Origin: Microbacterium maritypicum
Lineage (GTDB): Bacteria; Actinomycetota; Actinomycetes; Actinomycetales; Microbacteriaceae
Assembly: GCF_041529975.1 (NCBI RefSeq)
Contig: NZ_CP168030.1
Coordinates: 2,790,001 to 2,854,000, forward strand
Reading direction: 5' to 3'
DNA: 64,000 nt
This document shows positions 8,962-12,493 of this stretch, one piece after another (the first letter of the stretch is position 1; every line of letters begins with the position of its first letter). Position numbers and translations under genes: made by a program. The notes beneath the pieces were generated by a model that ran no database searches, had not been told where the DNA came from, and worked only from the letters and a program-made list of their open reading frames with translations.

Positions 8962-9558
8962 TTACTGAACGGGAAGGGTTCGGGGCCGCCACGACTCGCG
9001 ACGGGCCTCGAACTGCGCGATCTTGTCTTCGTTGCGCAGCGTGAGCCCGATGTCATCGAGCCCTTCGAGGAGCCGCCATCTAGTGTAATCGTCGATCCCG
9101 ATCTCGGCCTGGACGTCACCGATCGACGCGCTGCGCGCCTCGAGGTCGACCGTCATCCGTGCCCCGGGATTCCGGTCGATCTCCGCCCAGATCCGCTCGA
9201 GATCCTCTTCCGAGATCGTCGCCGCGAGAAGGCCCTGCTTGCCCGAGTTCCCGCGGAAGATGTCGGCGAAGCGCGGACTGAGGACCACTTTGAATCCGAA
9301 GTCGCGCAATGCCCACACGGCGTGCTCACGGCTGGATCCGGTACCGAAGTCCGAACCGGCGACGAGGACGGACGCGCCCTGGAATTCCGGCTGGTTGAGC
9401 ACGAACTCCGGGTCCTGTCGCCAGCCGTGGAACAGAGCATCTTCGAAACCCGTCTTCGTGACGCGCTTCAAGAAGACAGCCGGGATGATCTGGTCGGTGT
9501 CGACGTTCGAGCGCTTCAGCGGTGCGGCGACGCCCGTGTGCGTGATGAACTTCTCCAT
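8962..9558 (-). CDS. leuD: 3-isopropylmalate dehydratase small subunit
   Basis: LeuD is the swivelling domain of isopropylmalate isomerase, which converts 2- to 3-isopropylmalate in leucine synthesis. The 198-residue protein begins [26 protein letters not shown], with the family DTDQIIP motif, and contains the GSSREHA substrate-binding loop and GNSGKQGLL. The length is usual. It lies 3 bp after the leuC stop, so the two subunits are made from one transcript. murA follows 66 bp downstream on the same strand. Confidence 0.96.
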
Positions 9559-9561
9559 GGG

Positions 9562-11007
9562 TCAGATCCCTTCCGTCAGGTCGCTCGGGCTGGACAGCGT
9601 GCCGCGGATCGCGGTCGCGGCGGCGACGAGCGGCGACACGAGGTGCGTGCGCCCTCCCTTGCCCTGCCGTCCTTCGAAGTTGCGGTTCGATGTGGAAGCA
9701 CAGCGCTCGCCCGGTGCGAGCTGGTCGGGGTTCATGCCCAGACACATCGAGCATCCGGCGAAGCGCCATTCCGCTCCGAAGTCCGTGATGACCTTGTCGA
9801 GGCCCTCTGCCTCGGCCTCCAGGCGTACACGCGCCGACCCGGGGACGACCATGACGCGCACACCGTCGGCCTTCTTCTTGCCCTGGATGATCGATGCGAA
9901 GGCGCGCAGGTCCTCGATGCGGCTGTTGGTGCACGACCCCATGAACACGGCGTCGACCGGTACCTCCTTGAGGGGCGTCCCCGGCGTGAGGTCCATGTAC
10001 TCCAGCGCACGCTCGGCGGCGGCCCGCTCGTTCGGATCGACGATCTCGGCGGGATTCGGCACCGAGGACGACAGCGAGCTGCCCTGACCGGGGTTGGTCC
10101 CCCAGGTCACGAACGGCTCGAGCTCGTCGGCGTCGATGAAGACCTCGGCGTCGAAGGTCGCGCCCTCGTCGGTCGGCAGGGTGCGCCAGTAGGCCACGGC
10201 CTCTTCCCAGTCCTGGCCCTTGGGGGCGTGCGGACGGCCCTCGAGGTAGGCGAAGGTGGTCTCGTCGGGCGCGACCATGCCGGCCCGGGCTCCGGCCTCT
10301 ATCGACATGTTGCAGATCGTCATGCGCCCCTCCATGGAGAGGGCGCGGATGGCGCTGCCGCGATACTCGAGCACGTAGCCCTGACCGCCACCCGTGCCGA
10401 TCTTCGCGATCACGGCGAGGATGATGTCCTTCGCGGTGACGCCGTCACGCAGAGTGCCCTCGACGTTGATCGCCATGGTCTTGAACGGCTTCAGCGGCAG
10501 AGTCTGCGTGGCCATGACGTGCTCGACCTCGCTGGTGCCGATGCCGAATGCCATCGCTCCGAACGCGCCGTGCGTCGAGGTGTGGGAATCCCCGCAGACC
10601 ACCGTGATTCCGGGCATCGTGAGCCCGAGCTGGGGTCCGACGACATGCACGATGCCCTGTTCCGCGTCACCGAGCGAGTGCAGACGCACCCCGAACTCCG
10701 CCGCGTTGCGGCGCAGCGTCTCGATCTGCGTGCGGCTGGTCAGATCGGCGATCGGCTTGTGGATCTCCAGCGTCGGGGTGTTGTGGTCCTCGGTCGCGAT
10801 CGTCAGGTCGAGGCGGCGGAGCGGCCGCCCTTCGCTGCGGAGGCCGTCGAACGCCTGCGGGCTGGTGACCTCGTGCACGAGGTGCAGGTCGATGTAGATG
10901 AGGTCGGGTTCGCCGTTCTCGCCCTTGACGACGAGGTGGTCGTCCCAGACCTTCTCGGCGAGGGTCCTGCGGCGTGCGGAATCGGCACCGTTTGCGGGGG
11001 TGGTCAT
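9562..11007 (-). CDS. leuC: 3-isopropylmalate dehydratase large subunit
   Basis: LeuC carries the [4Fe-4S] cluster and active site of isopropylmalate isomerase and pairs with LeuD. The start is ATG 11007 behind an AGGAG site, giving 481 residues that begin [20 protein letters not shown]. Aconitase-family motifs are clear: [30 protein letters not shown] with the first cluster cysteine, and [13 protein letters not shown] with the other two. A 110-nt leader upstream codes a leucine-rich peptide and a strong hairpin, so expression is probably set by leucyl-tRNA charging. Confidence 0.96.
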
Positions 11008-11048
11008 TGCGTGTCTCCTGAGGCTGGCGGTACGGCCCACGATGGACT

Positions 11049-11088
11049 CCGCGACGAGGAGGGGCTCTAGATCGAGGTCTCGTCGCGG
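11049..11088 (-). promoter_or_regulatory. Leader hairpin of the leuCD mRNA
   Basis: On the minus strand, CCGCGACGAG (11079-11088) pairs perfectly with CTCGTCGCGG (11049-11058), giving a 10-bp GC-rich stem. Its 5' arm overlaps codons 10-13 of the leader peptide, so a ribosome paused on the leucine codons would cover it. No U-run follows, so it does not look like a classical terminator. The leader has CUCCU-like stretches that could pair with the leuC AGGAG site. The mechanism (transcriptional or translational attenuation) is inferred, not shown. Confidence 0.6.
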
Positions 11089-11117
11089 CGCGTAAGAAGA
11101 AGGAGCACGGTCCGCAT
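11067..11117 (-). CDS. leuL: Leucine-rich leader peptide of leuCD (attenuator)
   Basis: This is a 16-codon [19 protein letters not shown], ending in TAG. It has four consecutive leucine codons (CTC CTT CTT CTT). CTT is rare in this GC-rich genome, so pausing under leucine limitation would be marked. The ATG follows TAATCT (11124-11129) by 6 nt, so the leader ORF appears to start right at the transcript's 5' end. It lies 110 nt before the leuC start. The arrangement is that of a Leu-codon attenuator; the gene name is used by analogy. Confidence 0.72.
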
Positions 11118-11123
11118 GACGTC

Positions 11124-11129
11124 AGATTA
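11124..11129 (-). promoter_or_regulatory. -10 box of the leuL-leuCD promoter
   Basis: TAATCT on the minus strand fits the TANNNT -10 consensus and lies 6 nt before the leader peptide ATG at 11117. No clear -35 hexamer is visible at the expected distance. Confidence 0.5.
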
Positions 11130-11197
11130 CCACCGCTCGGACGCGCTCCGACCCGTCATGACACTCTGTTGAGCACCGAACGACCGAGAGGCACCGC

Positions 11198-12493
11198 ATG
11201 ACCGTCGACACCGCCCGCTTCGCCACCCGTGCGGTCCACGCGGCGAGAAGCCGTGAGACGGCCGCCTCGCGCGCGACCCCCATCTATCTGACGGCGGGGT
11301 TCGAGTTCGACGACTTCGACCATGCGGCCGACCACTTCAGCACCGGGGCGGGCTTCGGATACACGCGCACGGGCAACCCGACAGTTCGAGCCGTGGAGCG
11401 TCAGCTCGCGGCTCTGGAGTCCGGCGCGGACGCGGTGCTGGTCGCGAGCGGACAGGCGGCGGTCGTGACCGCCCTGCTGACCGTCGTGGGTGCCGGCGAC
11501 CACATCGTCTCCTCCACGCACATCTATGAGGGCACCCGAGGGCTCTTCCTCGACAACCTGGCTCGCCTCGACATCGAGACGACCTTCGTCGACGACATCG
11601 CCGATCCGGACGCCTGGCGGGCGGCGATCCGCCCGAACACCCGCGCGGTGTTCGCCGAGTCCGTCGCGAACGCGCGCAACGACGTGCTCGATATCCGCGC
11701 CATCAGCGACATCGCCGACGAGTTCGCGATCCCGCTGATCGTGGACAACACCCTGGCGACCCCGGCCCTGCTGCGTCCGATCGAGCACGGCGCGGCGATC
11801 GTCGTCCATTCCGCGTCGAAGTTCCTGGCCGGACACGGGTCGGTGCTCGGCGGCGTGATCGTCGACGACGGACGCTTCGACGCCGAGCACGCGGGCCACA
11901 ATGCGCCGCACCTCGTGCTGCCGGGTCGCGGCGACGCGCCCAGTGTCTTCGCTCGCCACGGCGGCCGCGCACGCATCGCCTACGCGCGGGAGTCGGTGGC
12001 ACCTCGTTTCGGGGCGTCTCCGTCGCCGCTCAACGCCTTCCTGATCGGCCAGGGCGTGGAGACGCTCGGCCTCCGCGTCGAGAGGCAGTCCCGCAACGCC
12101 CTCCAGATCGCGCAGTGGCTGGAACGGCACGACGCGGTCGAGAGCGTGGACTACGTCGGACTCCCCTCGCATCCTGACCACGAGATCGGCTCCCGCTACC
12201 TCGAAGGCGGATCGGGGTCGATCTTCACCTTCACCCTGCGTGGCGGGTTGCCCGCCGCACGACGGTTCGTCGAGGGCGTGCAGGTCTTCACGCACATGAC
12301 GCACATCGGTGACGTCCGCTCTCTGGTGCTGCATCCGGCGACGACGAGTCACGCGCAGCGCACGGACGAAGAGCGCGAGGTTCTGGGGGTGCACCCCGGC
12401 ACGCTGCGGGTGTCGATCGGCATCGAAGACGTCGATGATCTCGTCGCCGACCTCTCCCAGGTGCTGAACGCCGTGCGGGAGACGGTTGCATGA
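11198..12493 (+). CDS. metY: O-acetylhomoserine sulfhydrylase / Cys-Met metabolism PLP enzyme
   Basis: This is a PLP-dependent enzyme of the Cys/Met metabolism family, 431 residues long. It probably makes homocysteine from O-acetylhomoserine and sulfide. Family features are YTRTGNPT (55-62), the ASGQAA glycine turn near 83-88, VDNTLATP (182-189) and the PLP-binding lysine K208 in VHSASKFLAGHG. The length and the THIGDVRSLVLHPA C-terminal motif fit MetY better than cystathionine lyase. ATG 11198 has GAGAGG upstream. The stop overlaps the start of the next gene (ATGA), pointing to a shared sulfur role. Confidence 0.87.
   Translation: MTVDTARFATRAVHAARSRETAASRATPIYLTAGFEFDDFDHAADHFSTGAGFGYTRTGNPTVRAVERQLAALESGADAVLVASGQAAVVTALLTVVGAGDHIVSSTHIYEGTRGLFLDNLARLDIETTFVDDIADPDAWRAAIRPNTRAVFAESVANARNDVLDIRAISDIADEFAIPLIVDNTLATPALLRPIEHGAAIVVHSASKFLAGHGSVLGGVIVDDGRFDAEHAGHNAPHLVLPGRGDAPSVFARHGGRARIAYARESVAPRFGASPSPLNAFLIGQGVETLGLRVERQSRNALQIAQWLERHDAVESVDYVGLPSHPDHEIGSRYLEGGSGSIFTFTLRGGLPAARRFVEGVQVFTHMTHIGDVRSLVLHPATTSHAQRTDEEREVLGVHPGTLRVSIGIEDVDDLVADLSQVLNAVRETVA

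Follow-up and report, generated by a model that had tools for sequence, protein, structure and literature searches.

We analyzed a 64,000-nucleotide (nt) stretch of the genome of Microbacterium maritypicum, a member of the Microbacteriaceae (contig NZ_CP168030.1, positions 2,790,001 to 2,854,000 of the forward strand; "the window" below, with positions counted from its first letter), and here we consider the leader of its leuCD genes. A preliminary description made from the sequence alone had proposed that a leaderless leader peptide with a run of leucine codons controls leuCD. We conclude that this leader is a copy of the LEU element known from actinobacterial leuA. (Seliverstov, Putzer, Gelfand and Lyubetsky reported the LEU element in 2005, before the leuA genes of most Actinobacteria; in their outline, it comprises a leader open reading frame (ORF) with a run of leucine codons, a base stem between the leucine codons and the Shine-Dalgarno box of leuA, and a pseudoknot; PMC1262725.) The element before leuCD is real and conserved; it belongs to a known kind, found here at a new place in the genome, and does not form a class of its own. 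The locus contains the following features.

11124..11129, minus strand: -10 box TAATCT
11067..11117, minus strand: leader ORF of 16 codons, apparently leaderless (ATG at 11117, TAG at 11069-11067)
11094..11105, minus strand: leucine codons CTC CTT CTT CTT, which are leader codons 5-8
11079..11088, minus strand: 5' arm of stem 1, CCGCGACGAG, which is leader codons 10-13
11049..11058, minus strand: 3' arm of stem 1, CTCGTCGCGG
11101..11109, minus strand: leader arm of the base stem, CGTGCTCCT, an anti-Shine-Dalgarno segment that overlaps the first leucine codons
11010..11019, minus strand: leuC arm of the base stem, the Shine-Dalgarno sequence AGGAG (11019-11015) plus CACG (11013-11010)
11062..11065, minus strand: likely pseudoknot arm GCCC, inside the loop of stem 1 (the register is inferred and varies among genera)
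11035..11038, minus strand: likely pseudoknot partner GGGC, 3' of stem 1
9562..11007, minus strand: leuC, the regulated gene, large subunit of 3-isopropylmalate dehydratase (NF004016 and TIGR00170, above cut-off)
8962..9558, minus strand: leuD, the small subunit and next gene of the presumed operon (NF002458 and TIGR00171, above cut-off)
11198..12493, plus strand: divergent neighbor, O-acetylhomoserine sulfhydrylase-like (every NCBIfam model shown falls short of its curated cut-off)

All the parts that had been described at this locus are there: the -10 box, a 6-nt spacer (GACGTC), the 16-codon ORF with four leucine codons (three of them CTT), and a perfect hairpin of 10 base pairs (bp) whose 5' arm lies over leader codons 10-13 (11088-11079 with 11058-11049). 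This hairpin, stem 1 (CCGCGACGAG/CTCGTCGCGG), encloses a 20-nt loop and ends 41 nt from the ATG of leuC; the untranslated gap from the leader's stop codon to leuC is 59 nt. A classical amino-acid attenuator has an intrinsic terminator as the alternative to an antiterminator. We found no terminator-like site in 10900-11300, and the sequence after stem 1 is AGUCCAUCG rather than a U-run, which makes a classical attenuator very improbable here.

The leader is conserved before leuC in much of the family. We detected leuC in 145 of 150 Microbacteriaceae genomes, took from these places 100 regions upstream of leuC, chosen only by gene position (20 + 80, representing 95 genomes plus five second copies of leuC), and sought stem 1 in them independently of the leader. 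Stem 1 was found in 59 of the 100 regions, which correspond to 59 of 95 genomes and 56 of 83 genera (one genus was mixed) and include none of the five second copies. In 56 of these 59 elements, the 15-60 nt ahead of stem 1 contain exactly one TANNNT that is followed, after 6 or 7 nt, by ATG or GTG. All 56 starts lie in a single frame relative to the stem; all 56 leaders encode two leucines in a row, and 49 encode three. From the 6-7 nt spacing between -10 box and start codon in these 56 elements, we infer that the first transcribed nucleotide is at the leader ATG or beside it, so that translation of the leader would need no 5' untranslated region. This layout lends comparative support to the proposal that a leaderless leader peptide controls leuCD.

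The three leaders without the usual -10 box and start are those of loci L009, L016, and L154; in L154, the start lies at 8 nt. The leader of L016 (genome G123) seems to be split by a GC-rich palindrome inserted between two stretches of leucine codons; it retains stem 1 and the Shine-Dalgarno sequence of leuC, with no -10 box and start at the usual spacing. If loci chosen by similarity and leuA loci are added, stem 1 is present in 89 of 130 regions, the -10 box and start in 86 of those 89, two consecutive leucines in 86, and three in 78. The start-to-stem distance in this enlarged set is 29 nt (56 loci), 26 nt (14), 32 nt (13), 23 nt (2), or 35 nt (1). A covariance model of 33 elements (29 from leuC and 4 from leuA) agrees with these calls on loci L104-L183: the same 40 loci score at least 47 bits, and in the others it matches nothing up to E = 0.1.

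As for loss in close relatives, we saw none in the genus of the window: the element is matched at least once (E up to 0.01) in all 59 of its genomes and twice or more in 54, with most matches counted irrespective of the gene that follows. We read 26 leuC regions of the genus (within L024-L053); these had all been selected by a matching element, so they are not independent evidence. A pattern derived from the window matches 12 named records, all from Microbacterium and including M. oxydans. In more distant genera, leuC does occur without the element, as discussed below.

The choice of leucine codons is also unusual. The leucine runs of the 56 family leaders contain 106 CTT, 54 CTC, 15 CTG, and 2 TTG codons (106 of 177, or 60%, are CTT), and in 80 elements, which include loci chosen by similarity, 162 of 258 codons in the runs are CTT. 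As had been noted, CTT is uncommon elsewhere: among 1160 leucine codons in the window's genes, CTC makes up 51.8%, CTG 43.2%, TTG 2.8%, CTT 1.6% (19 codons), and CTA 0.6%. (These are 23 crudely called genes with 11619 codons, so one genome is being compared to leaders from many genomes.) CTT and CTC both consist of pyrimidines only, as pairing with a Shine-Dalgarno sequence requires. Pyrimidine pairing alone does not account for CTT being favored over CTC; wobble reading or A-rich boxes may be the cause.

Stem 1 is the best supported part of the RNA structure. Consensus folding of the 33 elements without any imposed structure gave stem 1 alone. In the 33-row alignment, 99.4% of its cells are paired; seven of the ten pairs are invariant and two show double changes. 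At the ninth pair, seven rows have G instead of A, and the opposite base is C in four of these and gives a G-U pair in the other three. For the base stem and the pseudoknot, we relied on a permutation test, in which the two sides from the same leader were compared to sides swapped among 50 distinct leuC leaders (5000 permutations). For the arms of stem 1, no permutation reached the value of the leaders' own pairs. For the base stem (leader against Shine-Dalgarno window), this value was reached in 7 or 25 of 5000 permutations, depending on the stretch of the leader, and in 39 with wider windows; it was reached in 86 if the Shine-Dalgarno hexamer was masked and in 38 if the leucine run was masked. 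For the pseudoknot (loop of stem 1 against the stretch after the stem), the count was 69 by duplex energy; by longest helix, it was 5 if G-U pairs were allowed and 108 if they were not. As a control, the loop against the Shine-Dalgarno window gave 4290 of 5000. Clear cases of the pseudoknot include CAGATC/GGTCTG, ACCGACC/GGTCGGT, CTGGCC/GGCTAG, and CCCCGGC/GCCGGGG. On the 33-row alignment, 83.3% of the pseudoknot's cells are paired and two of its four pairs show double changes, with similar covariation in controls whose partners were slid along the alignment. Stem 1 and a 4-bp pseudoknot together have 94.8% of cells paired, as compared to at most 61.8% with slid partners. It is this share of paired cells alone that sets the true partners apart: the double changes and covariation of stem 1 plus the pseudoknot are no higher than in slid controls.

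Within the window, both the minimum-free-energy structure and the centroid structure contain stem 1 and a predicted pairing of CGUGCUCCU, which lies over the first leucine codons, with AGGAGaCACG, the Shine-Dalgarno sequence of leuC and its flank. The preliminary description had suggested that the switch might act on the ribosome binding site of leuC instead of by termination. The lack of a terminator-like site, this predicted pairing, and the better fit of the leaders' own pairs than of swapped pairs all point the same way.

We therefore consider it probable that a LEU element before leuCD controls the initiation of leuC, which would be freed by stalling of the ribosome at the leucine codons and otherwise blocked by pairing of these codons with the Shine-Dalgarno sequence. 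With enough charged tRNA-Leu, the ribosome would cross the leucine codons, complete the leader, and leave. The leader RNA would then fold into the 10-bp stem 1 and the pseudoknot between its loop and the downstream stretch, and the freed leucine-codon segment (CGUGCUCCU) would pair with AGGAGaCACG and block the initiation of leuC. If leucine is short, the ribosome would stall on the leucine codons and cover the anti-Shine-Dalgarno strand, so that the start of leuC would be open. If one of codons 5-8 occupies the A site, the ribosome's footprint extends roughly over transcript nucleotides 1 to 27-36. This footprint implies that the entire anti-Shine-Dalgarno segment (nucleotides 9-17) would be covered and the Shine-Dalgarno sequence of leuC would be free. 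The putative direction of the switch is what a biosynthetic operon needs.

Two other readings of a leader with these parts can be weighed against the same data. First, the sensing could be as we propose with transcription as the output, if Rho or another factor terminates in the untranslated stretch before leuC. No intrinsic terminator was found, as this would predict, and in their treatment of cys leaders that lack terminators, Seliverstov and colleagues offer Rho (PMC1262725). Against this, the 59-nt untranslated gap between the leader's stop codon and leuC is short for Rho loading, and the complementarity between the leader and the Shine-Dalgarno sequence of leuC, which is better than for swapped pairs, would be unneeded. 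We consider termination by Rho unlikely. Second, the structured leader could be the site for an RNA-binding protein, with the leucine codons being incidental. A helicase-like protein (the ML1624 orthologue) was proposed for leuA in the 2005 study, from phylogenetic co-occurrence (PMC1262725), and such a protein could have its site in stem 1 and the pseudoknot, which are conserved. But the single frame and the leucine codons in 56 of 56 leaders, together with the strong bias towards CTT, argue that the leader is translated and that its leucine codons matter. This makes a protein site somewhat less likely still than Rho.

Several results weigh against our preferred reading, in which stalling at the leucine codons frees the Shine-Dalgarno sequence. 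A control pairing, of the leader with the pseudoknot stretch, reached the leaders' own value in just 210 of 5000 permutations. This implies that relatedness or composition inflates such tests somewhat, so the base stem and the pseudoknot are statistically supported but not proven. If the partners of stem 1 and the pseudoknot are slid by -3 columns, there are 9 double-change cells and a covariation of 0.125, versus 8 cells and 0.111 for the true partners, and in the window itself the pseudoknot has only 4 bp. A promoter scan of 10900-11300 found no full sigma-70-type promoter (there was no acceptable -35 box for the -10 box). Of the 83 genera, 27 retain leuC without the element. Mutations in the leuA leader of Streptomyces coelicolor are reported not to fit classical attenuation, and the 2005 study favors a protein-binding model (PMC1262725). 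Finally, the 118-nt leader folds with an ordinary energy (z = -0.87; 35 of 200 shuffled sequences fold equally well), so the evidence for the element is comparative, not thermodynamic. An ordinary folding energy for the whole leader would also suit a small ORF and an inverted repeat that came together by chance and have no function. We give this idea almost no credence, because the frame, the leucine codons, the stem, and the spacing of the -10 box are kept together in 56 of the 59 elements found by gene position, and these 59 represent 56 genera.

The leuC regions without the element (L104, L110, L116, and others) have short, plain upstream sequences, several with a box like TAGACT or TAGAAT. 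By our count by eye, a size of at most 1.8 Mb is seen in 16 of the 36 genomes that lack the leuC copy and in 0 of the 59 that have it, so genome reduction may explain some of the losses. We also considered that genera without the leuC copy might have lost the whole system, but of the 28 such genomes that were searched (of 36 seen), 27 keep one match to the model elsewhere, which we presume to be at leuA. In a LeuC tree of 61 rows (25 with the element, 27 without it, and 9 outgroup), the presence of the element is clustered (none of 500 shuffles had as few changes), yet 14 changes are needed within the family. Because few branches of this tree are well supported, it does not separate one gain with several losses from several gains, nor does it date them. 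Two genomes with the same genus code (G075 and G138, g76) differ in the presence of the element.

The genome of M. maritypicum contains further copies of the element. A whole-genome DNA search with the 201-nt region found the region itself and one other place (81% identity over 57 nt). This second place lies upstream of leuA (named by eye from its protein) and has TAGCAT, 6 nt, ATG, and a leader that reads MPFGGLLLLSCRDES; it shares an identical stem and has a purine-rich stretch ahead of the start of leuA. The covariance model identified a third copy (45.7 bits) ahead of a second leuA-like gene, again named by eye, with the leader MFTSEHLLLRRHGGA (G000:C1:2147680-2147779, minus strand; positions 1281-1380 of locus L084, minus strand). 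In this leader, a pair that is invariant among the 33 elements is changed and the stem still pairs. By eye, a GntR-like reading frame lies on the other side of the third copy, and an arrangement like that of L084 also occurs in L085 (genome G353). Rfam 15 has no match over the leuC leader or the leuA leader, either at the gathering score or at a permissive threshold (E up to 5); at the gathering score, the only matches in the window are three tRNAs. The parts that recur at both leuC and leuA (the leaderless frame, the leucine codons, the stem, the pseudoknot, and the pairing of leucine codons with the Shine-Dalgarno sequence) are likely to be the functional ones. When the LEU element was first described at leuA, twenty years ago, its mechanism was not settled, and a second gene under the same leader provides a further test set.

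Outside the Microbacteriaceae, a different regulator appears to stand beside leuC. In Streptomyces, the IclR-type regulator NdgR is encoded next to leuCD and regulates leuCD and other leucine genes, and the same source names LtbR of Corynebacterium glutamicum as a regulator of leucine and tryptophan synthesis (PMC4340878). All 18 of the genomes that we sampled outside the family (17 family codes of the order) have a divergent IclR-like frame beside leuC. A single IclR query matches this frame at 61-79% identity in 17 of them; the query itself was taken from the 18th, G211. (We call it NdgR-like, a label given without comparison to any NdgR sequence.) In 150 Microbacteriaceae genomes, the NdgR-like gene had no match at 1e-30. 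Six of these genomes were searched again at 1e-5, and the best IclR match was at 3.7e-17 with 30% identity; we take these weak matches to be other IclR proteins. In the window, the place that the NdgR-like gene occupies in the sampled non-family genomes is held by the O-acetylhomoserine sulfhydrylase-like gene.

We also considered whether the element might stand at leuC throughout the Actinobacteria, and for our sample the answer is no: in the 18 non-family leuC regions, which were scanned together with two leuA2 regions, the best match had 11.4 bits (E = 0.36). Similarly, in a class-level sample of 118 genomes, none of the 109 non-family genomes with leuC had a match to the model (E up to 0.001) less than 8 kb from that gene, in a scan whose stricter filters could let weak copies escape, and the nearest non-family match was 8.3 kb away. 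(Places on the same contig were picked by eye and the distances were computed.) The four family members in this sample each have a match within 200 bp of leuC, as judged by eye. Thus, in our samples, the leuC copy goes with the Microbacteriaceae, in which the NdgR-like gene was not found. The gain of the leuC copy and the absence of the NdgR-like gene are not one event, because 27 genera lack the copy as well and 27 of 28 such genomes keep a match elsewhere.

Some further matches hint at another target. Three LEU-like matches (36.0-36.2 bits; loci L080, L082, and L083 from genomes G223, G350, and G445, family code f18) lie about 240-300 nt ahead of a frame that by eye resembles leuB and are flanked on the opposite side by a serA-like frame, and L078 and L081 are similar upstream. 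It is possible that leuB is a further target gene of the same leader. In 18 non-family genomes (such as G471, G506, G545, and G555), a LEU match lies 12.9-34 kb from leuC, and perhaps these have the same placement at leuB.

What makes this locus of interest is the combination of the missing NdgR-like gene with a testable double role for the leucine codons: no protein regulator turned up beside leuCD in the 150 genomes sampled from one family, and two thirds of the genera examined have an RNA switch instead. We are evenly divided on a broader proposal, in which the Microbacteriaceae exchanged a DNA-binding regulator of leuCD (of the NdgR/LtbR type) for a copy of the leuA leader; leuA, the second leuA, and leuCD would then make up a leucine regulon that is wired by RNA and does without this transcription factor, and the leucine codons would serve as both the starvation sensor and the anti-Shine-Dalgarno strand. 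This would explain why the leader mutants of S. coelicolor were not classical: mutants in the leucine codons would be hard to interpret because the sensor and the anti-Shine-Dalgarno strand would change together. If the codons do have this dual role, then synonymous changes that break the pairing with the Shine-Dalgarno sequence should lead to derepression, and changing both sides should restore regulation.

The leuC leader resembles several known leaders. Leaderless poly-cysteine ORFs of mycobacteria reportedly sense cysteine and control the downstream operon (Canestrari and others, 2020); these are likewise short leaderless ORFs that are rich in the amino acid that they sense. The leuA leader of Streptomyces lividans TK24, LeuL1 (MRFGLLLLSCRGEGL), is reported to be leaderless and to lack a typical terminator (PMC8079986), and its peptide is close to that of the leuC leader and to the leuA leader of the same genome as the window. 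The leucine leaders listed for S. lividans in that source stand before leuA and leuS only, with none before leuCD. The leuA leader of C. glutamicum also has a small ORF with four consecutive leucine codons; it stands before leuA, and its description gives only the general idea of attenuation (PMC4046766). NdgR and LtbR are tied to leuCD control as well but, unlike the leuC leader, they are DNA-binding proteins. In the open-access (PMC) literature that we searched, we found no report of a leader of the LEU type before leuCD. The closest relative is the LEU element of 2005, which, as outlined there, shares with the leuC leader an ORF with a run of leucine codons, a base stem between this run and the Shine-Dalgarno sequence, an internal pseudoknot, and no described classical terminator. 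In that account, the element is named only for leuA operons and a transposase gene, and the present copy stands before leuCD. The related copies in the same genome do stand before leuA and the second leuA-like gene; we treat the location as what is new and not as part of the mechanism.
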